Source: a virus
Reading direction: 5' to 3' (one strand)
Virus record (IMG/VR): IMGVR_UViG_3300032093_000210
Coordinates: 1 to 48,854 of that record
Length of the DNA: 48,854 bases
This document shows positions 12,216 through 26,258 of this stretch, in pieces (position 1 is the stretch's first letter; every line of letters begins with the position of its first letter). Made by a program: the position numbers and the translations under genes. A model generated the notes under the pieces. The model saw only the letters and a program-made list of their open reading frames with translations. It did no database searches and was not told the DNA's origin.

Positions 12216-12318
12216 GAGCTTCTAGATTCTCGATATTTGCTGGCGGTATTTGGGTGTATACGTATTAATACCTAGAGCTCTTAGATTCCATAAACTTGCT
12301 GGCGGTATTTGGGCGTAT
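12216..12318. repeat. 44-bp direct repeat in the divergent control region
   Basis: Copies at 12216-12259 and 12275-12318 share the exact core TTGCTGGCGGTATTTGGG plus similar flanks (GAGCT, AGATTC, GTAT). The pair lies in the only divergent gap between the leftward late genes and the rightward early array. It is a good candidate for an operator or phage-polymerase promoter pair. Confidence 0.6.
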
Positions 12319-12344: not shown

Positions 12345-12396
12345 GGCCCTTCAATTGGCCCCTTTTTCCTTCTAGTGGTCTATAACCCTAGGAGGG
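12345..12396 (+). promoter_or_regulatory. Intergenic module 1 (hairpin, T-tract, box, SD)
   Basis: First copy of the repeated module. A short GGCC/GGCC stem runs into a T-tract, then CTTCTAGTGG, TATAACC and SD AGGAGGG, 4 bases before the ATG at 12400. Confidence 0.7.
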
Positions 12397-12399
12397 TAT

Positions 12400-12537
12400 A
12401 TGAAATCATTAGCTCTAATTATCAGCGTCGTAGTAATTCCTATTATCTTCATGACGGTATTGGCCAGCCAGCTACCAGAACGTGGAGACGGCCAGAATAT
12501 ACCGACTGTGCGTCAGGAGTATATAAACATGAGATAA
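12400..12537 (+). CDS. Tiny membrane protein
   Basis: A 45-residue product beginning MKSLALIISVVVIPIIFMTV: one hydrophobic helix at residues about 4-22 and a short polar tail. The start is fixed by AGGAGGG four bases upstream. It is the first gene of the module array. Unlike the related tiny proteins downstream it lacks the cysteine pair, so it may be a separate type. Function unknown; host-membrane targeting is inferred. Confidence 0.6.
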   Translation: MKSLALIISVVVIPIIFMTVLASQLPERGDGQNIPTVRQEYINMR

Positions 12538-12542
12538 GAAAA

Positions 12543-12596
12543 GGGGTCTGGGCAGGGCCCCTTTTTCTTCTGGTGATCTATAATCTCCAGGAGGAG
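12543..12596 (+). promoter_or_regulatory. Intergenic module 2
   Basis: GGGG (12543-12546) pairs with CCCC (12558-12561); T-tract, CTTCTGGTGATC, TATAAT and SD AGGAGGAG precede the ATG at 12602. Confidence 0.7.
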
Positions 12597-12601
12597 ACAT
12601 T

Positions 12602-12745
12602 ATGAAATCTATCAAAGACGATATACTCGGTTTAATTGTGGCTGCTGCACTCGTGCTCGGCGTGAATGGTCTAATTCTTGGCGCCTTCTACCGGGTTGTC
12701 TGCTACGACTACCCCGCACTGTCAATGTGTAAGACTGATAAATAG
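12602..12745 (+). CDS. Tiny membrane protein, two-cysteine family
   Basis: A 47-residue product with a hydrophobic helix (LIVAAALVLGVNGLILGAF, residues about 11-29) and a C-terminal tail holding two cysteines (VVCYDYPALSMCK). The tail pattern C-Y-(D/G)-x5-6-C recurs in the products at 13616, 13829 and 14613, and in altered form at 19729. The tail could form a disulfide outside the membrane. Module 2 supplies the SD. Function unknown. Confidence 0.6.
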   Translation: MKSIKDDILGLIVAAALVLGVNGLILGAFYRVVCYDYPALSMCKTDK

Positions 12746-12764
12746 GTAGATAAATAATAATTAA

Positions 12765-12814
12765 GGGGCAGCAATGCCCCTTTTTTCTTTCTGTGAACAC
12801 TAGTCCACAGGAGA
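12765..12814 (+). promoter_or_regulatory. Intergenic module 3
   Basis: GGGGCA, loop GCAA, TGCCCC, then TTTTTTCTTTCTGTGAAC and SD AGGAGA before the ATG at 12821. The box is a variant (CTGTGAAC) shared with module 11. Confidence 0.7.
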
Positions 12815-12820
12815 ACACCT

Positions 12821-13165
12821 ATGATGAGTATATATAAACATCTTCCCAGGGAGTATGACTACGCCTATCGTGGTCATACCAACGATCACTTAGATTGGGA
12901 TCGTTGTAGCGAAGTTCTTTATGCCAGCCGCAGTTTGGCAGTGGCCAAGGACTTCGCCCGTGGAGGATACGGGTCAGTCTTCATCCTTGCTTTCGACGGG
13001 AACGTCGAAGCCCACCGCCCCTGGTGGTACGTCGAAGACGACCCAAACTACTACGATGAGGTTGCATTACCAACCAGACGCATAGTCTGGTCTAAGATGG
13101 TAATATTCGGCGGTGAGTTCGTCGTCGAACCAGTAATTAACTGGAACCCAGGTTATATCAAGTAA
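12821..13165 (+). CDS. ADP-ribosyltransferase-like protein
   Basis: A 114-residue protein with the order expected of a small R-S-E type ADP-ribosyltransferase. There is an early Arg in DYAYRGHTN (residues about 13-21), a Ser motif in LYASRSLAVAKDFARGG followed by a hydrophobic strand SVFILAF, and a late acidic strand YDEVALPTRRIV that could hold the catalytic Glu. Phages use such enzymes to modify host RNAP or translation. The motifs are degenerate and no structure check was possible. Single gene between modules 3 and 4. Confidence 0.45.
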   Translation: MMSIYKHLPREYDYAYRGHTNDHLDWDRCSEVLYASRSLAVAKDFARGGYGSVFILAFDGNVEAHRPWWYVEDDPNYYDEVALPTRRIVWSKMVIFGGEFVVEPVINWNPGYIK

Positions 13166-13179
13166 CTTGGGGTAATTTA

Positions 13180-13230
13180 GGGAGTGTAATGCTCCCTTTT
13201 TCTTCTAGTGAACTTTAAACCTTAGAGGAA
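13180..13230 (+). promoter_or_regulatory. Intergenic module 4
   Basis: GGGAG (13180-13184) pairs with CTCCC (13192-13196); T-tract, CTTCTAGTGAAC, then SD GAGGAA five bases from the ATG at 13235. Confidence 0.7.
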
Positions 13231-13234
13231 GATT

Positions 13235-13555
13235 ATGTACGTTCTTAATTCTTTCCCAAACTCCCTTTACCCTACCACGCCGGGTGGGGCTATCACTAGT
13301 ACTTGTATTTCAGAGGAAGAGACCCGCGCTCTCCTCTCCACTACTGAGTGGACAAGTGCTCTCGGACACCTCTCTACGGCGGAGCTCCTCTCCGCCCGTC
13401 TCGGAGTAAACATACCCGTGAATCGGGTACAGGTGCCCTCGGGGGCCGAGTATATTGTATGTTTATTTGTCAGCCCCCGGCGGCTGGCAGAAGGAGAACG
13501 ATGGACGGAGGAGGATATACTCCAGTTCAACATCAACTACATCCTTGTTAAGTAG
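13235..13555 (+). CDS. acrIII-1: AcrIII-1-like viral ring nuclease (DUF1874 family)
   Basis: A 106-residue protein matching the DUF1874 (STIV B116) / AcrIII-1 layout. It starts MYVLNSF, then has SALGHLSTAELLSARLG, then IPVNRVQV, and ends with RRLAEGERWTEEDI. AcrIII-1 cleaves cyclic tetra-adenylate, the second messenger of type III CRISPR, and so blocks that defence. The key residues fit: His45 in the ALGH motif and Arg83 and Glu86 in RRLAEG, with the same spacing as His47, Arg85 and Glu88 that I recall for the characterised enzyme. It is a single gene between modules 4 and 5. Activity is inferred from family knowledge. Confidence 0.8.
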   Translation: MYVLNSFPNSLYPTTPGGAITSTCISEEETRALLSTTEWTSALGHLSTAELLSARLGVNIPVNRVQVPSGAEYIVCLFVSPRRLAEGERWTEEDILQFNINYILVK

Positions 13556-13564
13556 TTGATAGAA

Positions 13565-13611
13565 GGGGCACTGCGCCCCTTTTTCTTCTAGTGAAGTTAA
13601 CTCCTAGGAGG
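13565..13611 (+). promoter_or_regulatory. Intergenic module 5
   Basis: GGGGC, loop ACTGC, GCCCC, then TTTTTCTTCTAGTGAAG and SD AGGAGG before the ATG at 13616. Confidence 0.7.
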
Positions 13612-13615
13612 ATAT

Positions 13616-13759
13616 ATGAAGCTAGATAAGTATGATATAGCATACATTGTATGTATGCTATTCCTAACAATTACTTGCTCCGCCATTGTTGGTGGAGTAG
13701 CCGTGGAATCCTGTTACGGAGACCCGAAGTCTCCACTCTGTGAGGAGGTGAATAAATAA
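13616..13759 (+). CDS. Tiny membrane protein, two-cysteine family
   Basis: A 47-residue product with a hydrophobic helix at residues about 8-30 ending in the glycine motif AIVGG, and a tail with CYGDPKSPLCEE. It is a close paralogue of the 14613 product (same MKL.KYDI start, CSAIVGG core and LCEEVNK end). A disulfide-bonded tail outside the membrane is plausible. Function unknown. Confidence 0.65.
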   Translation: MKLDKYDIAYIVCMLFLTITCSAIVGGVAVESCYGDPKSPLCEEVNK

Positions 13760-13773
13760 TAAATAATAAATAA

Positions 13774-13825
13774 GGGGCCTTGGTAAGGCCCCTTTTCTTT
13801 TAGTGATCTTATAACCCTAGGAGGG
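13774..13825 (+). promoter_or_regulatory. Intergenic module 6
   Basis: GGGGCCT, loop TGGTA, AGGCCCC, then TTTTCTTTTAGTGATC, TATAACC and SD AGGAGGG before the ATG at 13829. Confidence 0.7.
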
Positions 13826-13828
13826 ATT

Positions 13829-13963
13829 ATGAAATACACATTATCTTACATAGCGGCTGTTGCCGTCATCCTTGGCGTATGCGGCGCTATCGTTGGTGGA
13901 GTATACCATGAGGCCTGTTATGGACCTCTACCGTCTTCACTATGTGAGGTAGACAAAGAGTAG
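13829..13963 (+). CDS. Tiny membrane protein, two-cysteine family
   Basis: A 44-residue product: MKYTLSYIAAVAVIL start, GAIVGGV helix end and a tail with CYGPLPSSLCE. It is most like the product at 19729. The gene is flanked by modules 6 and 7. Function unknown. Confidence 0.65.
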   Translation: MKYTLSYIAAVAVILGVCGAIVGGVYHEACYGPLPSSLCEVDKE

Positions 13964-13970
13964 TAGTTAA

Positions 13971-14022
13971 GGGGCCTGGGCGGGGGCCCCTTTTTCCTTC
14001 TAGTGATCTATAATCCTAGGAG
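13971..14022 (+). promoter_or_regulatory. Intergenic module 7
   Basis: GGGGCC (13971-13976) pairs with GGCCCC (13985-13990); then TTTTTCCTTCTAGTGATC, TATAAT and SD AGGAG before the ATG at 14029. This copy is close to the consensus. Confidence 0.7.
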
Positions 14023-14028
14023 TACATC

Positions 14029-14544
14029 ATGAATGGTTTACAGATGGAGAAAGTAGTGTTACGCCTAGTTGAAGAGTTAGGCTTCGAGTGTCCGAAGCCC
14101 CGAGAGATATGGAATACGGGTTATCTGTATAACCAGGCGCGTGATCTCGCGGGTGAACATCTAGAGCTCAACTCCCGAGGCGGTGTCCTTCGTCGTCTCG
14201 TCCCCACTGATGATTGGGGAGTACTAGACCGGGTATACAAGGTGGACGTAATAGTCCGCCAGTATACTGGCGAGCTATGGGCTCTTCAGCTTACTACCGA
14301 CGCCGAGGCAGTAGATAAGAAGCTGGGCCAGTTATGCCGTACCGACAGTCTTCGTTTGGCTGTTGGCATCACCAAGACCTGCTTGGTAGAGATTAAACCC
14401 CCTCAGCCTACCTGGGAGGGGCTCGGTCTGACTAGCCGGGTGGACCGAGATCATCTCGAGGAGTGCCTCTATGGTCTCTTCGAGACAATAGAGAAGAGTG
14501 ATAAACTTCTCTATTACCAGCTAGACTTAAGCTGGTTAAAGTAA
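14029..14544 (+). CDS. Hypothetical protein with possible PD-(D/E)XK-like fold
   Basis: A 171-residue protein. The central strand pair KVDVIVRQYTGELWALQLTTD (residues about 76-96) resembles the D-x(n)-(E/Q)-x-K core of restriction-endonuclease-like folds, with Asp and Gln present but Thr where the Lys is usual, so it may be inactive or a divergent binder. It is a single gene between modules 7 and 8, in the same island as the ring nuclease. I could not assign a family. Confidence 0.5.
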   Translation: MNGLQMEKVVLRLVEELGFECPKPREIWNTGYLYNQARDLAGEHLELNSRGGVLRRLVPTDDWGVLDRVYKVDVIVRQYTGELWALQLTTDAEAVDKKLGQLCRTDSLRLAVGITKTCLVEIKPPQPTWEGLGLTSRVDRDHLEECLYGLFETIEKSDKLLYYQLDLSWLK

Positions 14545-14555
14545 TTTAATTAAAA

Positions 14556-14608
14556 GGGGATATGCTTTATCCCCTTTTTTCTTCTAGTGATCTATTAATC
14601 CTAGGAGG
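14556..14608 (+). promoter_or_regulatory. Intergenic module 8
   Basis: GGGGATA (14556-14562) pairs with TATCCCC (14568-14574), then TTTTTTCTTCTAGTGATC and SD AGGAGG before the ATG at 14613. The stem differs from other modules but is compensated. Confidence 0.7.
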
Positions 14609-14612
14609 AATT

Positions 14613-14756
14613 ATGAAATTAGGTAAGTACGATATCGTCTATATTGTCTCTATCATAATATTAACATTTAGCTGCTCCGCCATTGTTGGCGGAATAGCCG
14701 TAGAGGCCTGTTACGGAGACCTGAAATCTTCACTCTGTGAGGAGGTAAATAAATAA
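14613..14756 (+). CDS. Tiny membrane protein, two-cysteine family
   Basis: A 47-residue paralogue of the 13616 product, with helix IVSIIILTFSCSAIVGGI and tail CYGDLKSSLCEEVNK. The SD of module 8 fixes this start; an upstream in-frame extension would run through the hairpin and is unlikely. Function unknown. Confidence 0.65.
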   Translation: MKLGKYDIVYIVSIIILTFSCSAIVGGIAVEACYGDLKSSLCEEVNK

Positions 14757-14763
14757 TAATTAA

Positions 14764-14814
14764 GGGGTCTTGATAAGGTCCTTTTTTCTTCTGGTGAATT
14801 TTAGTCCCAGGAGG
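14764..14814 (+). promoter_or_regulatory. Intergenic module 9
   Basis: Stem GGGTCTT/AAGGTCC contains two G-U pairs; then TTTTTTCTTCTGGTGAAT and SD AGGAGG before the ATG at 14823. Confidence 0.65.
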
Positions 14815-14822
14815 ACAATTCT

Positions 14823-16793
14823 ATGTCTAAGTTTATCAAATCCGCCAAAACCAAGGCGGCTCGCCTTCAGCTTGCCTACTCCCTTGAGTGGGAGGCACAA
14901 GCTGAGTTAGGAGCTGACCCCGCTCCCTACTATTTCTCTCTTTATAACGTTCTACTTGAGTTCCGGCAGTGGCTGGAACTCAATCCACATACTCCCTGGA
15001 GTGAGTGGGAGGAGTGGAATAGTCTATCCAGCTCCCAGCGCTGGATTATCTCTCGGGTCATCACCCGAGAAGTAAGCTTGGAGGAAGCAAAGGAGGCGCA
15101 CATGGTGCGCCTGCGCCTTATCCGATACCTTCGTTTAAACGAGGGTATCGGACTCTCTTATGAGAAAGAAGGGGTTTGGTTCGAGGAGCTAAGAACTCCT
15201 CAGCTGGCTGAACACTTAGTAGATCTAGGTGTTAAGTACTGGTGGGAGGTCAAGCGCATCCTCCCTCTATGGGAGGATGTCCGCACCCCTGGGCGGGTAT
15301 GGAACTCCGGTTACCAACCGGATCACAGTAAAGTGTTAAGGGTAGCGCTTACCCCAAACTATAACCGCTTACCCATTTGGGTTAAGCGGGTACTGGTTCA
15401 TATGTCTGTTCCCACCCGCATTGGTAACGTATGGGATCTAATCCCAGCTGCGCGGACATGGAAATATAACACAGAGATTCCCAAATCTTTAGCCGTACGG
15501 CTGGGAACTATGTACAAGTCCCGCCCAGACCTCCGAGCCCTTGCTGGGGTCCTCTGGAAAGAGGAGGGGGGACAGTGGGATCGGGCGCGCCGTCGTTCCC
15601 GTACCGAACGCATCGCTGCCTTCTGGCAGCGCTTTAATGAGGTGTGCCACTCGGGGCGCACGGCCATAGCCCAGTACTTATGGCTTAATGGCCACAAGCG
15701 CCTAGCCCTCCGTAAATTGTACGGGGAACTTAGTTGGGCTATTGAGCGCCCTTTGCTCAAAGCCTTTAAAGAGAACGAAGAAACTATATTTGGGGAGGAG
15801 GGGTATATACCCACCCTGAAGGTAGCAGTAGCTAATAAGCTATTGCTACTACGGGAGAATCCTCCAGAGTACCTCGTCCCATTAGTAACAACTTTCGGAA
15901 GCCGCTCTGAGGAGTGGCTCACTAAGATGGCCAAGCTCGGCTACAGCGAGCATGACGCCACTTACTGGCTACCCCTCGGCGGGCAGGGATTGAGCGAGTT
16001 CCTATTCGCACAGGGGGAGCGCCTACGCCAGCGCTCCACCTCATTTTCTGAACTCGGCTTAATATGCCGAGTCTGGCACAAACTGAGCGTGGAGGAGCGC
16101 TCTCTGCCATTCCGTCTACTGGTGACGGTATGTAAGACACGTAAGTACGCAAGTATTAACCACCAGGGGTTTGCCCTGGAGTGCGCCAATTGGGGTGTAT
16201 CTGCGCGGGATTACAACTACTACGAGGGGCGTTTTATACGTTCTCTACAAATACCAGATTTCCTTTCGGGGATTGATGCTACCCGGGATGGAATCCGCGC
16301 CTACTTCCTCCCCCGGGAGGATACGCGAGGGCTCTTCCTCGGTGAATATACTAACTGTTGCCAGCACCCAGACGGGGCTGGGGAAACCTGCGCTTGGTAT
16401 GGGCAAGAAAAGCGCAACTCCGGATTCCTCATATTCGAGGATAATTCAGGAATAATAGCGCAGTCCTGGACCTGGATTAACCAGTCCGGGGATCTGTGCT
16501 TCGATAATTGCGAAGCACTTGGGCTAGGGCAACGAGAGCCCACGGTTATTCTTCTCTACGAAGAGATAGCCCAGAAGATTCTTAAGATGTGGTTCATCAA
16601 AGGGGTGCGCCTCGGAGCAGACGGGTATCTCTATAATGCCTTCGTCAATCGGGTGCTCCTCGGAGCAAACGGGGATCTCTATGGTGCCTTCGACGCATGG
16701 GGCGAGCCACTTAAGGTAGGACGGTCTCTTCTACCAAAAGACTATCAAGATTACACGGATGCTAAGCGCGTCTATGTGATCAGTCATAACTGA
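14823..16793 (+). CDS. Large hypothetical early protein with Cys-rich C-terminal region
   Basis: A 656-residue protein, helical and Trp-rich in its N-terminal 450 residues. The C-terminal part has a conserved-looking block: LGEYTNCCQHPDGAG, C-A-W-Y, GFLIFEDNSGIIAQSWTW, then LCFDNCEALG. The layout (paired Cys, a polar loop, then a strand ending in Q-S-W) recalls PcfJ-like proteins, but the match is weak. Two near repeats, VRLGADGYLYNAF and VLLGANGDLYGAF, occur near the C-terminus. It is the second largest product of the module array. Function unknown. Confidence 0.6.
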   Translation: MSKFIKSAKTKAARLQLAYSLEWEAQAELGADPAPYYFSLYNVLLEFRQWLELNPHTPWSEWEEWNSLSSSQRWIISRVITREVSLEEAKEAHMVRLRLIRYLRLNEGIGLSYEKEGVWFEELRTPQLAEHLVDLGVKYWWEVKRILPLWEDVRTPGRVWNSGYQPDHSKVLRVALTPNYNRLPIWVKRVLVHMSVPTRIGNVWDLIPAARTWKYNTEIPKSLAVRLGTMYKSRPDLRALAGVLWKEEGGQWDRARRRSRTERIAAFWQRFNEVCHSGRTAIAQYLWLNGHKRLALRKLYGELSWAIERPLLKAFKENEETIFGEEGYIPTLKVAVANKLLLLRENPPEYLVPLVTTFGSRSEEWLTKMAKLGYSEHDATYWLPLGGQGLSEFLFAQGERLRQRSTSFSELGLICRVWHKLSVEERSLPFRLLVTVCKTRKYASINHQGFALECANWGVSARDYNYYEGRFIRSLQIPDFLSGIDATRDGIRAYFLPREDTRGLFLGEYTNCCQHPDGAGETCAWYGQEKRNSGFLIFEDNSGIIAQSWTWINQSGDLCFDNCEALGLGQREPTVILLYEEIAQKILKMWFIKGVRLGADGYLYNAFVNRVLLGANGDLYGAFDAWGEPLKVGRSLLPKDYQDYTDAKRVYVISHN

Positions 16794-16920
16794 TCAACAA
16801 CGCCGCCCCGCTCCTGTTATTGATCTTGCGGCGTAAAGCCACGAGATGGAACAGGTAAGGCAGGAAATAGAGAAGCTCCGCCGTGAGTGAGCGGAGCTGA
16901 ATAAGTAGAGTAGGTAAGGA
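16794..16920 (+). other. Intergenic stretch with hairpin and relic-like mini-ORF
   Basis: CGCCGC (16801-16806) pairs with GCGGCG (16828-16833). A 14-codon frame at 16846-16890 (MEQVRQEIEKLRRE) ends at a TGA and would continue AELNK, as if a short coiled-coil gene had been interrupted. There is no SD for it. CTCCGC/GCGGAG forms another small stem at 16876-16896. Confidence 0.3.
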
Positions 16921-16968
16921 GGGGCCCGAGGCCCCTTTTTTCTTTCATGAACTTATCTCCAAGGAGGA
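16921..16968 (+). promoter_or_regulatory. Intergenic module 10
   Basis: GGGGCC, loop CGA, GGCCCC, then TTTTTTCTTTCATGAACTT and SD AAGGAGG before the ATG at 16973. The box is a variant (CATGAAC). Confidence 0.65.
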
Positions 16969-16972
16969 GACT

Positions 16973-17812
16973 ATGAAATCTATCAAGCTGGCTGGCTATA
17001 CATTCCGCTTCGTCAAATTAGACGAGTCTATAGGCATTAAAGTAGGAGCTGATTACTTATACCGTGTAGAATACTACACAGCATCAGCCTGCCAAGAACG
17101 TGCCATCGCTACCTTGGAAGAGGTAGTGGAAATAATAGACGGAGGGACTCATCCCTCTAAGGGGTACTACGAGGACATTCCGTCGGTAGATTGCTCTTAC
17201 ACTCGTCAGAAGTGGACTCCTGCATTGTTACGCATTCCCGTCCGCGTACGTCGTTGGCGGGACCAAAATGGGCTTGTCACTTCTCCTCTAGATGAAGCGG
17301 CTCGTCTAGAAGCCCGGTGCATCTACCTCTCTAACGGAGAGGTAGAGGTAGACATGACGCACCTAGTAGTAGAATGCCCTACTACTACGGAGCACTATGA
17401 GTGGCGTGAGGAGGAGGCCGCCGCTTACTACCGCGATATTATCGAGCGTGAGGTTATACCCGACTATCTACGCTGGGTAGAAGAGAAAACAGACAAAAAG
17501 CAAAAGGAAGAGGATAAGGCACAGGCGGAGGAAGCGTATCTTGCGTCTCCTGAGCACGCTAAACAAATGGCGGGCTACCAACCCGTCATTGACTTCCTTA
17601 ACAAGAAGTCTTTTGACCTTAAGAAGATTGGAGAGAATGAGGCTCTCCGTTCACTTCTCAAATCAGGAGCCGTGGCATCTGCCGTCTATCGTTGGGGTGA
17701 ATATTACCTAGCGGTAGATGGCAACCCCAAATGTCAGCTCAAGTACCTCATGCAATTGATCGAGCGACTGGGGTATCGGGCTAAGGCCAAGCCCGTGCTT
17801 CGTAAGAAATAG
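16973..17812 (+). CDS. Hypothetical early protein
   Basis: A 279-residue protein. The N-terminal ~150 residues look beta-rich; residues about 165-200 are a charged helix (EEKTDKKQKEEDKAQAEEAY) likely to be coiled coil; the C-terminal 90 residues form a small basic domain. No named domain recognised. Module 10 lies upstream and the decayed module 11 downstream. Confidence 0.6.
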   Translation: MKSIKLAGYTFRFVKLDESIGIKVGADYLYRVEYYTASACQERAIATLEEVVEIIDGGTHPSKGYYEDIPSVDCSYTRQKWTPALLRIPVRVRRWRDQNGLVTSPLDEAARLEARCIYLSNGEVEVDMTHLVVECPTTTEHYEWREEEAAAYYRDIIEREVIPDYLRWVEEKTDKKQKEEDKAQAEEAYLASPEHAKQMAGYQPVIDFLNKKSFDLKKIGENEALRSLLKSGAVASAVYRWGEYYLAVDGNPKCQLKYLMQLIERLGYRAKAKPVLRKK

Positions 17813-17820
17813 ATAACAGA

Positions 17821-17868
17821 GGGACAGCAATGCACCTTTTTTCCTTCCTGTGAACACTAGTCCAAGAG
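17821..17868 (+). promoter_or_regulatory. Intergenic module 11 (decayed copy)
   Basis: The sequence is nearly module 3 (GGGACAGCAATGCACC, T-tract, CTGTGAACACTAGTCC) but the hairpin has mismatches and the SD is reduced to AAGAGAA. It shows modules duplicate and then decay. Confidence 0.6.
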
Positions 17869-17876
17869 AACAGCTC

Positions 17877-18173
17877 ATGTTAAACTGCACCACTAATGTC
17901 ACCGTAGCTGCTCGTGCTACTGCTGCTTACAATTACGAGTCTAGTGTGGCTCGTCAGAGCTGGGGTAGCCAGCATCGTGGTGGGACGGTGGTACGTAGTA
18001 GCCGTCACGTCTTCTACGGTCCTGGTGAGCCTGACAATGCTCGTTGGGATGCGGGCTTCTGGGGAGGTGGCTCCTTCCACCAAAGCTATAACCAGTCTAA
18101 ACGTTGGCGTCGTTATCACGGCAAGGCGTTACGCCAAGCAGCTAAGAAGGCTGGACGTTGCCGTGGGGTGTAG
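17877..18173 (+). CDS. Small basic hypothetical protein
   Basis: A 98-residue basic protein rich in Arg, Gly, Ser and Trp. I start it at the ATG at 17877, downstream of module 11; an in-frame codon at 17850 lies inside the module and is unlikely. The C-terminus (RWRRYHGKALRQAAKKAGRCRG) suggests nucleic-acid or membrane-surface binding. Function unknown. The weak SD leaves expression uncertain. Confidence 0.5.
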   Translation: MLNCTTNVTVAARATAAYNYESSVARQSWGSQHRGGTVVRSSRHVFYGPGEPDNARWDAGFWGGGSFHQSYNQSKRWRRYHGKALRQAAKKAGRCRGV

Positions 18174-18188
18174 GTAGTTAATTAGTAA

Positions 18189-18241
18189 GGGGAGCATATA
18201 GCTCCCCTTTTTCCTTTTAGTGACCTTTACTCTAGAAGGAG
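18189..18241 (+). promoter_or_regulatory. Intergenic module 12
   Basis: GGGGAGC, loop ATATA, GCTCCCC, then T-tract, CTTTTAGTGACC and SD AAGGAG before the ATG at 18249. Confidence 0.7.
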
Positions 18242-18248
18242 TATTATC

Positions 18249-18401
18249 ATGTGCCCATATCAAACCTATCTGCACATTATCAACCATACCACTATCCAGT
18301 TACGTACAGTTGATGGTCCTGCGTGTCACATAGACCTGGATGGTCACCGCTGGTACGTTCTACCAGATGGTGACTTCGAGGTCATCACTCTAATAGACTA
18401 A
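18249..18401 (+). CDS. 50-residue protein, MCPY family (copy 1)
   Basis: A 50-residue product starting MCPYQTYLHI with the block VDGPACHIDLDGHRWYV and end GDFEVITLID. A second copy lies at 19410 with about three quarters identity, showing that the frame is conserved and real. The two Cys and two His residues could bind metal. Function unknown. Confidence 0.65.
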   Translation: MCPYQTYLHIINHTTIQLRTVDGPACHIDLDGHRWYVLPDGDFEVITLID

Positions 18402-18407
18402 CACTAT

Positions 18408-18460
18408 GGGGAGCTATATGCTCCCCTTTTTCCTTCTGGTGATTCATTAGTCCCAGGAGA
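18408..18460 (+). promoter_or_regulatory. Intergenic module 13
   Basis: GGGGAGC, loop TATAT, GCTCCCC, T-tract, CTTCTGGTGATT and SD AGGAGA before the ATG at 18465. Confidence 0.7.
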
Positions 18461-18464
18461 GCAT

Positions 18465-18701
18465 ATGTACAAAATCCTAGCGGCGTCAATCTACGCCGCA
18501 CTACAGGCGGCGGGCGTCTACGTCCACCCAACGACGTGGGCATTCATCTCGTATTATTTCATGGGCGGTCCTCAGCCCCCGACTCTATCTGAAGCCGACA
18601 TCGCTAAGACACGCGATGCGGTAATACGAAACTTCAAGGCTCGTCTTAACGAAGAAGAAATCACCTCTCTCGCTGCTTCCGGAGGGCACGACAACTGGTA
18701 G
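18465..18701 (+). CDS. Hypothetical protein, possibly read through an in-frame TAG
   Basis: A 78-residue product that ends at TAG (18699-18701). The same frame stays open after the stop to 19202 and the sequence just after the stop reads like protein (SSLAGAIGNFNYRILAVGPD). No module, SD or terminator separates the two halves, unlike nearly every other gene boundary here. Either a 245-residue gene has been split by a point mutation or the TAG is partly suppressed. Function of either half is unknown. Confidence 0.5.
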   Translation: MYKILAASIYAALQAAGVYVHPTTWAFISYYFMGGPQPPTLSEADIAKTRDAVIRNFKARLNEEEITSLAASGGHDNW

Positions 18702-19202: not shown

Positions 19203-19208
19203 TATTAG

Positions 19209-19246
19209 GGGGCTGCTAACCACAGCCCCTTTTTTCTTCTAGTGAC
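19209..19246 (+). promoter_or_regulatory. Intergenic module 14 (no SD)
   Basis: GGGGCTG (19209-19215) pairs with CAGCCCC (19223-19229), then TTTTTTCTTCTAGTGAC. The SD part of the module is missing here. Confidence 0.65.
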
Positions 19247-19262
19247 AACCTGCCTCGCTCTA

Positions 19263-19331
19263 ATGATGGAGGCTCGCGCTCTTTCCCATCAAGTGGAAGA
19301 GGAGGGGCACGCTCTCTTGCGTAGTCTGTAG
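19263..19331 (+). CDS. Possible 22-residue remnant peptide
   Basis: A 22-codon frame (MMEARALSHQVEEEGHALLRSL) between modules 14 and 15. There is no SD, so this is more likely the remains of a deleted cassette than an active gene. Confidence 0.2.
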   Translation: MMEARALSHQVEEEGHALLRSL

Positions 19332-19347
19332 CTAGTCGTGTAGTTAA

Positions 19348-19403
19348 GGGGCTGTTGGGTGGGCGGCCCCTTTTCTTTCTAGTGAACATTTACTCTAGGA
19401 GGT
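19348..19403 (+). promoter_or_regulatory. Intergenic module 15
   Basis: GGGGC (19348-19352) pairs with GCCCC (19366-19370), then CTTTCTAGTGAAC and SD AGGAGGT before the ATG at 19410. Confidence 0.7.
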
Positions 19404-19409
19404 AAATCT

Positions 19410-19562
19410 ATGTGCCCTTATCACACTTATCTTCACGTGTTGAATCGTTTGACGATTCAACGTCGGTCTGTAGATGGTCCAGCGTGTCATCTAGACCTTG
19501 ATGGTCATCGCTGGTACGTTGTACCAGATGGTGATTTAGAGATTATTACTCTAATAGACTAA
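19410..19562 (+). CDS. 50-residue protein, MCPY family (copy 2)
   Basis: Paralogue of the 18249 gene: same length, MCPYHTYLH start, VDGPACHLDLDGHRWYV core and EIITLID end. Differences are spread along the protein and the frame is intact, so selection for protein function is likely. Function unknown. Confidence 0.65.
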   Translation: MCPYHTYLHVLNRLTIQRRSVDGPACHLDLDGHRWYVVPDGDLEIITLID

Positions 19563-19568
19563 TGCTAT

Positions 19569-19608
19569 GGGCCCGCCTCTATCTTGAATAAGAAACAGAG
19601 ACGGGCCC
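19569..19608. terminator. Long hairpin after MCPY copy 2
   Basis: GGGCCCG (19569-19575) pairs with CGGGCCC (19602-19608), extended by CTCT/AGAG. There is no T-tract. It is followed by about 65 nt without a gene. Confidence 0.4.
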
Positions 19609-19675
19609 TCGTTTCTAAATGATAGCGTGTTAAAGAAAAGATAAATGAAGCTCAACGCCTTAGTTCGTTAAGTGC

Positions 19676-19723
19676 GCCAACAATTGGCCCCTTTTTCTTC
19701 TAGTGATCTATTAATCCTAGGAG
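19676..19723 (+). promoter_or_regulatory. Intergenic module 16
   Basis: An unrelated stem GCCAA, loop CAA, TTGGC leads into CCCCTTTTTCTTCTAGTGATC and SD AGGAG before the ATG at 19729. The box is conserved although the stem sequence is not. Confidence 0.65.
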
Positions 19724-19728
19724 AGATT

Positions 19729-19863
19729 ATGAAATATACACTAGCTTACATAATTTCTGTTGTGGTAATTCTTGCCACTAATGCCGCTATCGTTGGTGGG
19801 GTATACGTAGGCATTTGTCATGGGGACTCCCCCGTGACGGCGTGCGAGATAGGTAAAGAGTAG
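19729..19863 (+). CDS. Tiny membrane protein, two-cysteine family (divergent)
   Basis: A 44-residue product, MKYTLAYIISVVVILATN start, AAIVGGV helix end and tail ICHGDSPVTACEIGKE. It is close to the 13829 product but has His instead of Tyr after the first Cys. Preceded by module 16. Function unknown. Confidence 0.65.
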   Translation: MKYTLAYIISVVVILATNAAIVGGVYVGICHGDSPVTACEIGKE

Positions 19864-19870
19864 TAGTTAA

Positions 19871-19905
19871 GGGGCCTGAGCGGGGGCCCCTTTTCTTTTA
19901 GTAGT
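19871..19905 (+). promoter_or_regulatory. Intergenic module 17 (no SD)
   Basis: GGGGCC (19871-19876) pairs with GGCCCC (19885-19890), then TTTTCTTTTAGTAG. The following sequence lacks a clear SD before the ATG at 19928. Confidence 0.6.
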
Positions 19906-19927
19906 TTTATACACCCAAGTATACACA

Positions 19928-20674
19928 ATGAGAAACAACAACAATCAAGCCTCTAACTCCTCTAACTCCTCTAACCCTTCTAACCCCACCAACTCTACTG
20001 TGAAAAACTACGTATTTACTCTTAACGTAAGCAAGAGTGTCAACACTAAACCTGGCATTCTTGCTTACGTGCACAATGGCGCTATCAAACGCCGCTTGGA
20101 TCTATCTAGCTACTGGCTAGAATTCCGGCTGATATCCAATAAGAACGGGGAGGTACCTCTCACTACCTCCGATGGCCGTAGCTTATCTACGTCCAAGTTT
20201 GTAGAGCGTCTGACCGGAGACGCCAGCGATGATATTATTATGTCTGTAGAGTTATCTACAGATTTCGAAGACGACTGGGAAAGCTCATCATGTGGAAGTG
20301 TAAAAGTTAGCTTCAACGCAGAAGACCTCTGCGTTGGACGCGAAACAGAATACAAGGGCACAATAACCCAGTACTTTCACCTTGAAGGTGCGGAGATACA
20401 ACTTCATCGGGAAGTCATGCGCCCGAAGATAGACCCGTCTATACTGGACGGGTTTGAGGGGACGGCAAAATCTAACGTGGTAACTGTGGAACAATTACAT
20501 AGTAAAGCGGCCGCCCGCAAACGCAAACGGGAGGCTGCTGCAACAGCTCGTGCAACTGCCGCAGCCGCAGCAGCAACAGAAGCAGCCGCAGCAGCAACAG
20601 CAGAAGCTACAACAGAAGCAGCCGCAGGTACTGTTGATAAAACACGTGCAGATATAAACGGTCTACTTGACTAA
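19928..20674 (+). CDS. Hypothetical protein with low-complexity ends
   Basis: A 248-residue protein. The N-terminus is a Ser/Asn/Pro repeat (NNNNQASNSSNSSNPSNP); residues about 25-175 look like a beta-rich globular domain; the C-terminal ~55 residues are a basic stretch (ARKRKRE) followed by an Ala/Thr/Glu helix. This resembles a DNA- or surface-associated protein with flexible tails. It directly precedes the second polymerase-like gene and may be made with it. Function unknown. Confidence 0.55.
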   Translation: MRNNNNQASNSSNSSNPSNPTNSTVKNYVFTLNVSKSVNTKPGILAYVHNGAIKRRLDLSSYWLEFRLISNKNGEVPLTTSDGRSLSTSKFVERLTGDASDDIIMSVELSTDFEDDWESSSCGSVKVSFNAEDLCVGRETEYKGTITQYFHLEGAEIQLHREVMRPKIDPSILDGFEGTAKSNVVTVEQLHSKAAARKRKREAAATARATAAAAAATEAAAAATAEATTEAAAGTVDKTRADINGLLD

Positions 20675-20681
20675 GTAAAAA

Positions 20682-20735
20682 GGGCCCTGCTTGGGCCCCT
20701 TTTTCTTTTAGTGGTTCTACATTACTAGTAATACC
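20682..20735 (+). promoter_or_regulatory. Intergenic module 18
   Basis: GGGCCC, loop TGCTT, GGGCCC, T-tract, CTTTTAGTGGTT, then a TTACTAGTAA palindrome just before the ATG at 20736. There is no strong SD. Confidence 0.65.
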
Positions 20736-23700
20736 ATGAATGTCAACTTTGTCTTCTTCCAATCTTTTGTAGCCTCTATCAGCGCCGCTATCGCAGGTAC
20801 TCGCACTACTGCACGACGCGTAGGCCCTGGGCGCCGTGCCCAGCAGATAGCGAGCCGTCGCGCTAATCGCGTAGTACGCCGTCGCTCTCGTCGTATAGCG
20901 TCAGCCGGCCGCCCTATACGCTCCTTACCTCAAAGCCAACGCCCCTGCGTTGTAAAATCAGCACGGCGTGCGCTACGTCGTGCCGCAGCTGCCGCAGCCT
21001 CAGCCGCCCGCAAACACGTGTTACGCGGCCGTAACGTCGTAGACAAACTTGTCTTACAACAACGTAAGGCCAAACCTATACTGCGCGCTGTCAGTGCATT
21101 ATTTACGCGTCCCTCGCGCCCCGCGCGTCCTACTAGCACCGGCACCGGCGCTAAAGCCGTTGCTACCGTAGTTAATAATGCTGCTGGTAGTATTATCGCT
21201 GCTCTTAATCAAGGCCGCGTAAACTACCGCGGCAACGGCCGCACTTGTGTGGGCAAGAAGTACAAAACTAAAAACGATAAAACGGCTTTATCTACCGCTA
21301 AAGCTGCTAAAGCTGCCAATAAAGCAGCACGCGTTAAACGTTGTGTGAGCGTTGTAATGCCAGAATTACCAAGTGACGTACCGGCTATCCGCATGATAGC
21401 CATAGGCAAACTATGCGGTGTCACCTTCGTACAAGGGAGCATAGCATCTTATTGTAATGGTGTCATCACTATACCCGACTACAACAATTTATACACAGTG
21501 ACTCATGAGCTTGTTCACCACTGCCAAGCTCTAGGTCTTACTGAAGACCTAGAGTTTGGCGCTGTATCCAAAGCCGCCATGAAGGCTGGCTTCGCTCAAT
21601 GGCATGCCACTAAATCGTTCTACGAGGGTACTGAACACGAGAACGACGAGTACGAAGCAGCCCTGCTTATGTACGACCCGGCGTTAGTGGCCCGCCTCTT
21701 ATGCACCCACTACCTCATGGCCGCGTTTGTAGAAAGCGGAGCACCTGGTCCTGATGATACATGGATGGATGTAGTAGACAGTTTAGATCCTGCGATTTGT
21801 CGTGAAGTCGTAGGTCTCGATGATCGTGTACTCGGTTATAAGACCTATGGCGAATATGCTGAAGCCGTTGGATATGATGACACTAATACGTTATTAGACT
21901 GGGAATTCGTCTTTAACAATAGTGTCAACAACGATGATGCTGTTGCGCTAACCATTCAAGCAATTGATGGTCTTATTGGTGCGGCGCCCGCAGCAGTAAC
22001 TCCTACCCGCCCGCTCTCTAACACAGGAGCCCCTACTAAGGGGTTAGAGAGTGATAGCTCCTCTACCAATACCACCAATGACCCTAGTACTATGAAAAGC
22101 ATTATCGAGATGTTAATTCCTGACCCTAGTACTCTCGGTGGAGTCGTGTCTCCTAAGCAGGAGGCGCGCATCACGACAGCTCGTAAAGAGCTAGCCCGCT
22201 TGTTTGGGGCTAATAACTTCGACCTTCTGCCTGAAGGTCCGATTCTCTATGTCGTGTCTCCTAACAGCCGTATGTCTAAGAAGTTCCTTGCGCTTCTAGA
22301 CCACCGTGTTGTTTACACCACAGACTCTAAGATGAATCCTAAGGTCATTAACTTAGGTGTGACTAAGTCTATTCCCTACGAAGCCGACAAGCATACCTAT
22401 GCTACTAAGACCGAATGCTTAGTTAACATGTATAGTGAGCACTTCCTCACTAAGTTAGCTACGTGGTCTGGTGATGACCTGGCCGCTCTCGTAGGCTGTC
22501 TGTGTGTCAAGCAGCACCGTATTGTTAGTGTTGAGGGCCCCTGTGTTGTCATCAAGGGTAATAACCGCAGCACTACTTTCAACTTTAGTACAGGTACCGT
22601 CAATGATGGTCGTCAGCGTCGCATCGCTAATGAACTCGTCAAAGTCGGAGGCAAGGACTACAGTGGTCGTGTAGTCCTTGTGGCACTCTGTATGAAGGTA
22701 GCGTATAACGCCACTGGTGCGCGTGCTATCCTCAACGAGATAACCAACCTGTGGCGCGAGGACATCAACTACGGCGCTCAGCCTAAAGAGGGCCAATCTC
22801 TGTTTGAGATTAATCGCGGTATGAGTCGTCCTATCGTGTTCAAGCCTTGGGATAAGGCCTTCCCCTTCCTGCAAGTAGAGAACACTAATCTTGCTCCCAG
22901 CGATCTCGAATTGTCGCTCAAGGCCGGCATCATAGCAGCACCTGATAAGTACAATACAAAGTGGATCGCTGTAGGTAAGGGCGCCAAGGCCATGTTCCTT
23001 GGGCTTAAGGATGGTAAGATATACTCCATCCATGACTTCAGCAAGCCCACTAAGGTGTACAACCGTCCGCCTAGCTCGGGTAAATACACCCGTGCTGAGA
23101 TCATAGATCGTCGTGATAGCCTACTTCGCGTTGATTTAGGTGATGGCGGCTATAGTTGTGGTGGTGGCCTCTATCTACGCACTGCATTCACCAATAGTCG
23201 CTTTGGCTTTGGCAGCGGTGTTGCTGCTATACGTCGCGACCTCGAGTTCGAATACACCGTACCGAAGACCATTACTAAGGAGTTTCACGTACTCCGTATT
23301 CCTAGCTCAGTTCGCGCTCTTATGGCTGCTGATCTAGATGACCCCACGAGTAAGCTCATAGAAGTCATAGAAGGTAAGATAGCGAAGGCAGAGGGCCAGG
23401 TTTATGCTCCTGGTAACCCTATCATCAGTATTATGCAGGGCAAGTACTGCATTGTCAAGAACGAGACGTTCGCGCAGGACATCCGCGTAATAGGCGGGAC
23501 TGTCACGCGTAATGGCGTCGAGGGCCGCGCTGATAGCGTCACCATTCGACTTGAGACTGAAATGGTAGGGCGCGACCAGGTCCTCAAACTCCGCGGTCTA
23601 GGGAAGAAGCTTACCACTCTTCCCTATGACGTTAAAGGATTATCTCAACCCTGGGATATCATCCTGAATAACGAGACCACCAAGGGATGGCCCGCACTCA

Positions 23701-25817
23701 TAGAGATGTTTGCCATTGAGAAGGGGGGCTGCACCTATACTCCCGAAGGTGCGCTTCTCACCATCGATGATACTGGTAAAGTCATTGATCTCATGGCTAA
23801 GACTAATGCCTTTACTGAGTGGGCTCGAGCCAACAGTGTTAAAGAGGTCATCTCCTTTGATATGGCCCGCGACCTGTGGGATTCCATCTCGTCTGTAGTC
23901 GCTAACGATGATATCAATGTAATCGATATAGACGATACCAGCGTCCGTATCGAAGAGACCGTCGAAGTTATATACGGCTATCTGCCGTACGATATCGAGA
24001 TAGCTACTCCTCGTGAGTCCGTAGCATTCTCCAAGATGACTATGGAGCAGATCGGTATTGTGGCTCTACAGAACCGCGCTTGGGGCGAAGCGCTCATGAA
24101 GGAAGTTAAGTACGATAACGTTATGTCCATAGTTAGCATGATCACATCTAAAGACTGTGCTGCTTGTGTTAACATCAGCACTACTAAAGGGCGTGACCAT
24201 CTACGGGGCATTATCGGTGTAGTTAACGACTACGTTTCTGATAGCACCCCCGGCAGTGACCGCGAGCTGCTAGGCCGTTTTGCTACCGCCTACCCCAATG
24301 GAGTGGATATCGTTGCCCAGAACAACGGCAATGAAGTCTCTCTTCATATCAATGGTAAGGCCTTGAGTGCATTCGGTACCTTCTCTGGCGCCTCCGCTAC
24401 TGGCATTATGTTAGACCTTCTAACTCTGCTGGCTTACGTTACTGATGTAGGGATTGAAGACCAGAGTGGTTTGGATAGTAAAATCTACTCTATGACTGCT
24501 AAGGTCAGCCGTGGTTTACGCACATGGTGTAACACTATGGTTAAATCCCAGGGCATTCTGAAAAGTATAGCCCGCGCCGGCAATGTGGTCGTTGGTAAGG
24601 TCAAGACGAGCTATAGCCCACTGCTTCATAGCGCTGATGGCGTGCCTGTAATTCTCATGCACCCCGATTGCCCTATGGTGCGTATGCTTGGCGTTGAAGA
24701 GGGCCAGGTTATTGGGGTACAACGTACTCCTATGGGTTTCATCCTATGTGGCCGCGTCAAGTTCTCTACTACTGATGCCTTCGTCGCACACTATACGGTC
24801 AACCCCCTCCTATGGCACGCCGTTAACGAAGGTGATGCTGATGGTGATCAGTGCGGCGGCATTAATGCTCACAAGTATGGTATTAACGCTAAGAGTGCCC
24901 TCACTATCAATGCTAGTCTCATGGGCATGGGCGGCTACTTCTACTGCTACGAAGCAGATGACCTGCCGTTCTTCGCCTTCATGAGCTATGAAGATAAGAT
25001 GGGCAAGAAATCCCTCACTAAATGGGATAAGGCTGTAGCTACTGCTATCGCTGTCAATAAGTACGTCAGCGACGCTGCTGAGGTGCATATGCACTACAAA
25101 GGGGCCGTAGGTGCTGGCTATGGTATCTGTTCCGCACTTGCCTTCCAGGCATGGGATAGTATGTACCGCGCTAGCGGCGTCGATACCGACGCACTCAAGG
25201 CGTGTGTTATAGCTTGGCGTTTCGTCTATGAAAACATGGGTCTCGGGGGCTATACCCCTGAGGCTAAGATCTTCATGGCGACCTTAGTACAGGCAGCCCG
25301 CGCCTGGGCTGCTGGCGTACCTATGTATAAGTCGGCGCAAGACAGGTTATACTACTCTGCCAACTCTACTAAGCTTGCGGATACGGATCGCCAAGGAAGT
25401 GGTGTACCTCCTGCTCAGGCTATGGCTGGCCTTATGCCTGCTAAACTAGCTAAGGAGCCCGCGGTAATCTACCAGCTTATAAAGGCTCGTGCCCGTACTC
25501 TCACATACGGTGCTCTCGAACGGGGCAACTTCACTCGCGAGGGCCTTATCATGTCGTCTGCCATATACGGAGCCTTCCGTCGTACTGGCCAGGGCTATGA
25601 TCCTGTGGCTCCTATGACCCAGGATGACGCAGCTAGTTATGGCGCTGATGAGATCGTTCCAGTTAGTGTGTTCCAAATGGTAAGTGAGTTCCAACTCTCT
25701 AATCATGTCAGGAACCCCCAGCTCAAGCAGCTGTTGGAAATCGCAACTGCTGTACATCTCGACCTCGGCGACTACAAACTAGAGCTCGCTGAAGCTGAAG
25801 ATCATCCTGATTTCTAA
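20736..25817 (+). CDS. Single-chain RNA polymerase-like protein with basic N-terminus and zincin motif
   Basis: A 1,693-residue protein. Residues about 20-205 are extremely Arg/Lys/Ala-rich. Residues 256-262 read THELVHH, an HExxH zincin motif, with acidic residues 30-45 further on that could complete a metal site. Residues about 946-985 (GRDQVLKLRGLGKKL, then a WDIILN strand) resemble the beta-subunit GDK..GR.G.KG and DIVLNP segments. Residues 1367-1371 are D-A-D-G-D in NEGDADGDQCGG, matching the beta' NADFDGDQ active-site motif, preceded by an EEGQVIGVQR strand as in beta'. The beta-then-beta' order in one chain is known from YonO-like and crAss-like phage polymerases. It closes the module array. 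Polymerase identity is likely; a peptidase role is speculative. Confidence 0.7.
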   Translation: MNVNFVFFQSFVASISAAIAGTRTTARRVGPGRRAQQIASRRANRVVRRRSRRIASAGRPIRSLPQSQRPCVVKSARRALRRAAAAAASAARKHVLRGRNVVDKLVLQQRKAKPILRAVSALFTRPSRPARPTSTGTGAKAVATVVNNAAGSIIAALNQGRVNYRGNGRTCVGKKYKTKNDKTALSTAKAAKAANKAARVKRCVSVVMPELPSDVPAIRMIAIGKLCGVTFVQGSIASYCNGVITIPDYNNLYTVTHELVHHCQALGLTEDLEFGAVSKAAMKAGFAQWHATKSFYEGTEHENDEYEAALLMYDPALVARLLCTHYLMAAFVESGAPGPDDTWMDVVDSLDPAICREVVGLDDRVLGYKTYGEYAEAVGYDDTNTLLDWEFVFNNSVNNDDAVALTIQAIDGLIGAAPAAVTPTRPLSNTGAPTKGLESDSSSTNTTNDPSTMKSIIEMLIPDPSTLGGVVSPKQEARITTARKELARLFGANNFDLLPEGPILYVVSPNSRMSKKFLALLDHRVVYTTDSKMNPKVINLGVTKSIPYEADKHTYATKTECLVNMYSEHFLTKLATWSGDDLAALVGCLCVKQHRIVSVEGPCVVIKGNNRSTTFNFSTGTVNDGRQRRIANELVKVGGKDYSGRVVLVALCMKVAYNATGARAILNEITNLWREDINYGAQPKEGQSLFEINRGMSRPIVFKPWDKAFPFLQVENTNLAPSDLELSLKAGIIAAPDKYNTKWIAVGKGAKAMFLGLKDGKIYSIHDFSKPTKVYNRPPSSGKYTRAEIIDRRDSLLRVDLGDGGYSCGGGLYLRTAFTNSRFGFGSGVAAIRRDLEFEYTVPKTITKEFHVLRIPSSVRALMAADLDDPTSKLIEVIEGKIAKAEGQVYAPGNPIISIMQGKYCIVKNETFAQDIRVIGGTVTRNGVEGRADSVTIRLETEMVGRDQVLKLRGLGKKLTTLPYDVKGLSQPWDIILNNETTKGWPALIEMFAIEKGGCTYTPEGALLTIDDTGKVIDLMAKTNAFTEWARANSVKEVISFDMARDLWDSISSVVANDDINVIDIDDTSVRIEETVEVIYGYLPYDIEIATPRESVAFSKMTMEQIGIVALQNRAWGEALMKEVKYDNVMSIVSMITSKDCAACVNISTTKGRDHLRGIIGVVNDYVSDSTPGSDRELLGRFATAYPNGVDIVAQNNGNEVSLHINGKALSAFGTFSGASATGIMLDLLTLLAYVTDVGIEDQSGLDSKIYSMTAKVSRGLRTWCNTMVKSQGILKSIARAGNVVVGKVKTSYSPLLHSADGVPVILMHPDCPMVRMLGVEEGQVIGVQRTPMGFILCGRVKFSTTDAFVAHYTVNPLLWHAVNEGDADGDQCGGINAHKYGINAKSALTINASLMGMGGYFYCYEADDLPFFAFMSYEDKMGKKSLTKWDKAVATAIAVNKYVSDAAEVHMHYKGAVGAGYGICSALAFQAWDSMYRASGVDTDALKACVIAWRFVYENMGLGGYTPEAKIFMATLVQAARAWAAGVPMYKSAQDRLYYSANSTKLADTDRQGSGVPPAQAMAGLMPAKLAKEPAVIYQLIKARARTLTYGALERGNFTREGLIMSSAIYGAFRRTGQGYDPVAPMTQDDAASYGADEIVPVSVFQMVSEFQLSNHVRNPQLKQLLEIATAVHLDLGDYKLELAEAEDHPDF

Positions 25818-25824
25818 TTACAAT

Positions 25825-25873
25825 GGGGTCATATGACCCCTGGGGGCCACCTGGCCCCTTTTTCTTTTAGTGG
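25825..25873 (+). terminator. Double terminator plus module 19 after the polymerase gene
   Basis: GGGGTCATATGACCCC (25825-25840) is a perfect palindrome. It is followed by GGGGCC, loop ACCT, GGCCCC (25843-25858), a T-tract and CTTTTAGTGG. This is the last copy of the module and has no long gene after it. Confidence 0.65.
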
Positions 25874-26226: not shown

Positions 26227-26258
26227 ACCTCTAATTATTACCTATTAACTTATTAGCC

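Follow-up and report, generated by a model that had tools for sequence, protein, structure and literature searches.

The elements called PeSLs, reportedly treated by Arbiol et al. 2010 and Comeau et al. 2014, are one of several described systems with which we here compare an array of repeated intergenic modules in a 48,854-bp virus contig (IMG/VR record IMGVR_UViG_3300032093_000210, the whole of which is called the window below), from a Ma-LMM01-like phage (Fukuivirus) of Microcystis, a bloom-forming cyanobacterium. In T4-type phages, according to two papers that cite this work, PeSLs are composite promoter-terminator motifs mediating modular shuffling (PMC4503421, PMC3950731). In the haloarchaeal virus HGTV-1, an inverted repeat and a TATA-like element precede most open reading frames (ORFs) of one part of the genome, and shuffling has been suggested (PMC3950731). 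The Thermus phage P23-45 has a virion RNA polymerase (vRNAP), the tail-tape-fused gp96, together with a non-virion RNA polymerase (nvRNAP), gp64, special terminators near its pre-early genes and AT-rich vRNAP promoters (PMC10770324). For T4 gene e, the 5′ arm of an inhibitory helix is missing from late transcripts, whose start within the arm releases the Shine-Dalgarno (SD) sequence (PMC3014915). Ma-LMM01-like phages are themselves said to lack a phage RNA polymerase (PMC9927357).

In the window, each complete module comprises a GC-rich hairpin with a T-tract (hairpin 1), a box containing the word TAGTG and an SD sequence ahead of a gene. We consider it on balance probable that this module is a PeSL-like terminator combined with an insulated start, which also acts as the recombination joint between one-gene cassettes. 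Hairpin 1 and its T-tract would end the transcript of the preceding gene, and everything from the box onward would belong to the following gene. Upon read-through, CTTCTAG of the box (and its variants) would fold on CTAGGAG (and its variants) in a second hairpin, hairpin 2, and silence translation, whereas a transcript whose 5′ end, through initiation or cleavage, lies near the box GTG would lose the 5′ arm, so that the SD would be exposed. Terminator and SD hiding together would thus insulate each small gene from its neighbor, making any cassette placeable behind any other, and with cassettes recombining in a core of about 17 bp (CCCCTTTTTCTTCTAGTG) shared by all joints the array would act as a shuffling platform. 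The steps differ in their basis: array, shuffling and crossovers are shown by comparing sequences, sequence and covariation serve to predict that hairpin 1 terminates and that hairpin 2 hides the SD, a start or a cut at the box we infer, and recognition by the giant proteins gp064 and/or gp080 is offered as a hypothesis.

A search for the core CCCYTTTTYCTTYTAGTG, allowing up to three mismatches, gave 18 matches in the window, all on the + strand and all within 12,360–25,872, as compared to 0.17 ± 0.47 expected by chance and a maximum of 2 in any of 100 shuffles. When a stem was required and the divergent copy at 16,935 was added, the array comprised 19 modules on this single strand, between 12,345 and 25,872, which agrees with the nineteen copies counted in an earlier, sequence-only reading of this DNA. 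The claim of that reading that the module is not seen elsewhere held in six complete relatives (162–182 kb, scanned along their whole records), which carried 7–16 copies each, on the same strand as the gp064 gene and all adjoining it, and in which a reversed control pattern gave no matches. The window homologue of this gene (20736–25817, + strand) encodes a 1,693-amino acid (aa) protein, 86–88% identical to gp064 of Ma-LMM01, MaMV-DC, -DL01, -DL02, -CH01, -CH02 and -DH01, and a terminal copy of the module behind it, at the position of module 19, was present in all 18 arrays compared. In genome contigs the core pattern had a single match, in a Campylobacterales metagenome-assembled genome, with no GC hairpin before and no SD after the box and thus a chance match, and nothing was found on plasmids. 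Among thirteen further contigs from the pattern scan, L018, L019, L022, L024, L025, L027, L028 and L029 were rejected as module arrays because all of them carry one unrelated coding-like sequence.

The joints between genes were compared using 157 module instances from the 18 arrays, with the 130 bp on either side of each instance being clustered. This gave 26 families of upstream ends and 24 families of downstream starts, joined many-to-many in 49 combinations. Copies having only the upstream gene in common were alike through hairpin 1 and unlike after the box, copies having only the downstream gene in common were unlike in hairpin 1, became alike at roughly base nine of the box and stayed so up to the gene, and the ~17-bp core was common to all copies in the identity profile. 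Because the profiles switch at this shared core, we take the cassette to consist of a box, a gene and that gene's hairpin 1, with crossovers in CCCCTTTTTCTTCTAGTG. Judged from these comparisons, reshuffling of genes between phages at the module core is almost certain, a property that the sequence-only reading had overlooked. Duplicated cassettes were also found within the window, at 13,602/14,599 and at 18,249/19,410.

Hairpin 1 consists of a GC-rich stem of 4 to 13 bp or more, followed by the T-tract, with loops of 3–8 nt in nearly all copies and with varying loop sequence. Terminator-like sites numbered 37 between 12.0 and 26.4 kb, against 10.6 ± 3.3 expected. Compensating changes in the stem had been claimed earlier, and the 5′ arms indeed paired better with their own 3′ arms than with those of other copies, both among the 19 modules of the window (−14.0 versus −11.5 ± 0.5 kcal/mol for swapped arms; 0/20,000 permutations) and among the 26 upstream families (−15.3 versus −12.8 ± 0.4; 0/20,000 permutations). 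Transcription termination at hairpin 1 is very probable as a prediction, and the terminator half of the earlier interpretation stands well with the GC stem and T-tract, the covarying arms, the inheritance of the hairpin with the upstream gene and the copy after the last gene.

That interpretation had also included a hairpin promoter of the N4 type, i.e. a virion polymerase reading a hairpin that single-stranded or supercoiled DNA extrudes, which the position of the hairpins just upstream of genes and the giant proteins encoded nearby could suggest. An N4-type promoter has a hairpin whose geometry does not vary and whose small, conserved loop keeps a set distance to the start, and it is read by a T7-like single-subunit polymerase of the virion. 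A T7-like polymerase (PF00940) was not found, in a test that was uninformative since the Pfam control was likewise silent. In the arrays, however, the loops could have any sequence and were inverted between phages, which leaves no fixed hairpin geometry, the stems differed widely in length, and one copy followed the last gene; we therefore find this explanation unsupported and highly improbable. At least eight upstream families had the loop in both orientations across phages (for example CTGTtaaccACAG versus CTGTggttaACAG), including window 13772–13794 versus L042 at ~2463, L010 at 14702 versus L042 at 4849, and L032 at 4662 versus L033 at 9957. Inversion leaves a terminator functional but would disable a hairpin promoter that depends on recognition of its loop. 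In chloroplast DNA, small hairpin loops are known to flip in this way, and the flipped loops seen here resemble products of template switching or inter-arm recombination.

Overlooked in the sequence-only reading was also hairpin 2, as which the sequence from T-tract to ATG folds in most copies, with 9–13 bp and with the SD inside the 3′ arm. Its pairing is CTTCTAG with CTAGGAG, a box having CTTCTGG is accompanied by CCAGGAG on the opposite side, and two variants pair in a shifted register (TTTCTGTG/CACAGGAG and CCTTTTAG/CTAGAAGG). When arms were swapped with free register, a stronger test than letter shuffling in a fixed register, own arms paired better than swapped ones, with z −7.9 across the 69 distinct pairs (0 of 20,000) and z −3.8 (p = 1.5e-4) when each downstream family supplied a single pair (n = 20), and in the fixed register 85% of the cells were paired, compared to 49–68% when slid by 1–3 nt. 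The median probability of the SD being unpaired was 0.03 for 15 array families versus 0.58 for 21 other Ma-LMM01 genes (p = 0.004), and in a longer context it rose from 0.21 in read-through RNA to 0.69 if the RNA begins at the GTG of the box (paired p = 1.2e-4). As the box pairs with the SD, read-through RNA would hide the SD while RNA begun at the box would not, and SD hiding by hairpin 2 is predicted to be likely for most copies. A canonical SD is lacking, however, in the modules at 17,838, 19,889 (gp065 gene) and 20,699 (gp064 gene).

With regards to the box itself, the TAGTG word was near-invariant (positions 12–14 being G in 47/49, T in 49/49 and G in 46/49), also in modules lacking hairpin 2 and in the gene-less module that closes the array. 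The ATG was found 37–41 nt from the first base of the box in 17 of the 19 window modules, bearing out the claim that the module precedes nearly every gene; the two exceptions were the copy at 19,230, without credible gene or SD, and the copy at 25,858, which follows the giant gene and has the next ORF about 400 nt further on. In the other arrays, with the search confined to 34–50 nt, most genes had their ATG 35–42 nt from the start of the box, including those where the SD was absent. Near-invariant TAGTG and tight distance are compatible with a start, a processing site or an end point at the box. A TATAAT-like word remarked upon earlier does occur in some copies, but it was exact in only 2/19 modules, had at least 5/6 matches in 4/19, and mostly forms the loop of hairpin 2. 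Pairs of sigma-70-like hexamers were not enriched in a crude consensus scan (18 versus 15.4 ± 3.4 by chance), and of the sites near modules, at 12419–12446 and 18220–18247, neither has a conserved position. TATAAT as a general sigma-70 −10 element was rejected.

A phage-specific start or processing site is favored by the fixed distance from box to ATG, the unenriched sigma-70 pairs and a different box that is confined to the gp064-like gene of distant relatives (see below), and on such sequence features the chances of a start or a cut occurring at the box seem evenly balanced. Cutting alone, by a nuclease that acts on either the box or hairpin 2 to split the cistrons and free the SD, would release the SD equally well as a start at the box; since no nuclease candidate was identified and the terminator-like hairpin 1 would be left unexplained, we regard a pure RNA-processing site as rather improbable.

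Several observations weigh against the combined terminator, insulated start and joint. The letter-shuffle test of hairpin 2 in a fixed register was weak (151/5000), the energy of this hairpin is mostly generic because pyrimidine tracts pair with any SD (the null being already −7.6 kcal/mol), a clear two-sided change is in essence limited to a single pair (A-U to G-C) apart from the two shifted-register variants, and the SD of D6, D13, D15 and D20 is predicted to be accessible in read-through RNA. According to a published RNA-seq study, phage-specific motifs are absent and genes are preceded by SigA-like sites (PMC5780444), and ahead of the array direct repeats carrying TATTATAGGG could be ordinary promoters giving one long transcript, in which case module starts would be unneeded for expression. 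The same repeats, the high null pairing energy and the published view of all classes being on SigA-like promoters (PMC5780444) would suit a conventional operon whose intrinsic terminators leak, transcribed by host RNA polymerase from the repeated upstream promoters, the T-tract/SD pairing being generic and the core kept by recombination between copies. We nonetheless judge such an operon unlikely, as the CTAG/CTGG extension and the SD side covary more than swapped arms do, TAGTG is near-invariant even in the gene-less last module, the box lies at a tight distance to the ATG, and distant relatives retain the layout with another box. The very existence of the array runs counter to the published statement of no phage-specific motif (PMC5780444). 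Ahead of the array, direct repeats containing GCTGGCGGTATTT..GTATTATAGGG (window 12216–12318, L009 13270–13440) are possible promoters or binding sites.

The distant relatives bear on what might read the box. In the Microcoleus phage My-WqHQDG (two records, 193 kb), the C-terminal part of a 3,410-aa protein is 27% identical to gp064, and a GC hairpin followed by GGGCCTATTATTGT occurs in five exact copies, at the gene boundaries leading to the gp064-like gene and at the spot after it, with this box found nowhere else in the two records. Four copies of hairpin and GGGCCTATTATTGT lie in the same layout in an IMG/VR contig of 85.5 kb that encodes a further gp064-like protein, only beside and behind the gene for it. 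That the layout is kept while the box varies by lineage suggests, as far as can be inferred from three lineages, co-evolution with a phage factor, and a different hairpin-plus-box found only around the gp064-like gene suggests involvement of a phage transcription apparatus. No distant relatives were found in genome contigs, and none in viral contigs when the Microcoleus segment was used as query. In L015 (8183–18415), the giant My-WqHQDG protein has a phrog_1017-matching insert between two gp064-like stretches.

The phage factor could be one of the two giant proteins of the window, of which the gp064 homologue, with RTP...DADGD at aa 1367 besides HELVHH at aa 257, is a candidate two-barrel RNA polymerase. 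The gp080 homologue, a candidate second polymerase, enters the window from its left edge (213–6071, + strand; the C-terminal 1952 aa of a ~3560-aa ORF) and has GDFDGD at aa 927 of this part. The module could then be terminator and/or promoter of a phage two-barrel RNA polymerase, with gp080 as virion and gp064 as non-virion enzyme as in P23-45, to which we assign somewhat less than an even chance. In its favor, both giant ORFs contain DxDGD, which is kept in distant homologues: for gp064 as DADGD, DGDGD, DTDGD or DSDGD with R-T-P about 40 residues upstream, and for gp080 as the GDFDGD that sits in the longest invariant (best-conserved) block at 24% identity. P23-45 gp64 has a like RxP...DYDGD layout and gp96 a like signature, the module occurs only beside gp064 with a box that differs where gp064 has diverged, sigma-70-like sites are unenriched as given above, and P23-45 has intergenic regions of a like one-gene layout (PMC10770324). 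Against it, DxDGD is found in calcium-binding loops too, and the absence of the motif at other genes implies that the polymerase would serve this region only. AlphaFold2 models of gp064 aa 530–1693 and of the gp080 core reached a predicted local distance difference test (pLDDT) score of 28 and 38, being poor because diverse sequences were lacking and the alignments held near-identical sequences only. Alignment of the giant proteins to P23-45 gp64 and gp96 with hhalign gave nothing, and searches of them in Pfam, with PF00623 and in the PDB (phmmer) gave no support for an RNA polymerase. We thus treat gp064 and gp080 as candidate polymerases of unproven identity, and that the box is read by a phage polymerase is a tentative suggestion. 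More doubtful still is the wider proposal that two divergent two-barrel polymerases (gp080 and gp064) would use the module as terminator-promoter, read-through silencer and cassette recombination site, with the layout but not the sequence conserved across cyanophages.

Additional features of these proteins included DGDGD for DADGD near aa 1367 in the gp064 homologue of L042, with the three aspartates retained, and the zinc-metallopeptidase-like HELVHH (aa 257–262), to which HELFHY corresponds in the giant My-WqHQDG protein. The annotation of P23-45 gp96 also includes a metallopeptidase domain.

The individual modules, all on the + strand, were as follows. Module 1 (12345–12394) has a weak hairpin GGCC/GGCC, T-tract, CTTCTAGTG box and an SD hairpin with a 12-bp stem and one unpaired T, ahead of ATG 12400 (45 aa) and without a same-strand upstream gene. 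It is followed by module 2 (12540–12593; hairpin GGGGTCT/GGGCCCC, compensated pair CTTCTGG/CCAGGAG; ATG 12602), module 3 (12763–12813; TTTCTGTG opposite CACAGGAG in shifted register; ATG 12821), module 4 (13179–13228; hairpin AGGGAGTG/TGCTCCCT; ATG 13235) and module 5 (13561–13610; hairpin GGGGC/GCCCC; ATG 13616, a 47-aa membrane-like protein). Module 6 (13772–13823; ATG 13829) has the hairpin AAGGGGCCTT/AAGGCCCCTT, the loop of which is inverted in L042, module 7 (13969–14022) precedes ATG 14029 (171 aa), and module 8 (14552–14607), with hairpin AAAAGGGGATA/TATCCCCTTTT, precedes ATG 14613, a paralogue of the 13616 gene. Array genes 12602, 13616, 13829, 14613 and 19729 encode 44–47 aa paralogues, single-membrane-span-like with a Cys-rich tail (CYGDPKSPLCEEV...). 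CTTCTGG/CCAGGAG is found again in module 9 (14762–14813; ATG 14823, 656 aa) and module 13 (18408–18459; ATG 18465). Module 10 (16916–16965; ATG 16973, 279 aa) has the divergent box CTTTCATGA and a predicted accessible SD, module 11 (17818–17852; ATG 17877) a decayed stem and box CTTCCTGTG, and module 12 (18187–18239; ATG 18249) has CCTTTTAG opposite CTAGAAGG in shifted register. Only hairpin and box make up module 14 (19207–19244), with no credible downstream gene or SD; module 15 (19346–19401) precedes ATG 19410, a paralogue of the 18249 gene, and module 16 (19670–19723), with hairpin GCGCCAA/TTGGCCCC, precedes ATG 19729. Hairpin and box but no canonical SD are present in module 17 (19869–19903; box CTTTTAGTA; ATG 19928, the 248-aa gp065 homologue) and module 18 (20677–20713; box CTTTTAGTG; ATG 20736, the gp064 homologue), and module 19 (25842–25872), behind the gp064 gene, retains the box with no gene directly downstream.

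Tandem repeats lie behind the terminal module in all lineages (L009 21282–21562; window 25910–26230; L058 2920–3187; L015 after 18415), with 42-bp units in Ma-LMM01, where they precede the published early genes gp054–gp063, and 69-bp units in L058. Further along the window, 27150–28360 holds a small gene and a second ORF, each in two diverged tandem copies with host-like TTAGTTATCAGCTATCAG repeats between, and there are two tRNA-Met(CAT) genes (36224–36296 and 37240–37312), only the first of which reached the Rfam threshold.

The module provides a testable cis-element where the RNA-seq study left three expression classes, with host SigA alone, unexplained (PMC5780444), and a single element of about 60 bp would thereby serve to end transcripts, insulate translation and shuffle genes. 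Two giant function-unassigned proteins are flagged as possible polymerases in phages said to have none (PMC9927357), and if this is true, host-independent transcription in infections of bloom-forming Microcystis becomes testable.

Compared with the known systems, the module is functionally closest to the PeSLs, with which it shares, as these are presented in the citing papers, a stem-loop terminator plus start signals between small variable genes, densely spaced and shuffled at the elements (PMC4503421, PMC3950731). We do not place it among the PeSLs, since a search for the sigma-70 early promoter that defines them found none, and it further differs by the extra SD-covering hairpin, by its confinement to one locus beside a giant gene and by its occurrence in Ma-LMM01-like phages. 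The promoter-stem-loop-like motifs of HGTV-1 differ in belonging to an archaeal virus with an archaeal promoter, and an SD hairpin is not described for them. The pre-early region of P23-45 is similar in that the units around the nvRNAP gene hold one gene each and come with a hairpin terminator and, by the ATG, a start motif, and in that two DxDGD proteins are encoded, one of them a giant with DFDGD; its elements and polymerases are experimentally supported (PMC10770324), whereas here there are motifs only, in unrelated sequences, and the SD hairpin is without a noted P23-45 counterpart. Finally, the leaders of T4 genes e, soc, 49 and I-TevI also hold the SD in a helix in read-through RNA, as predicted here for most copies, but in the window the arrangement extends over about a dozen consecutive genes and is fused to a terminator, and the start inside the 5′ arm is here a putative one.

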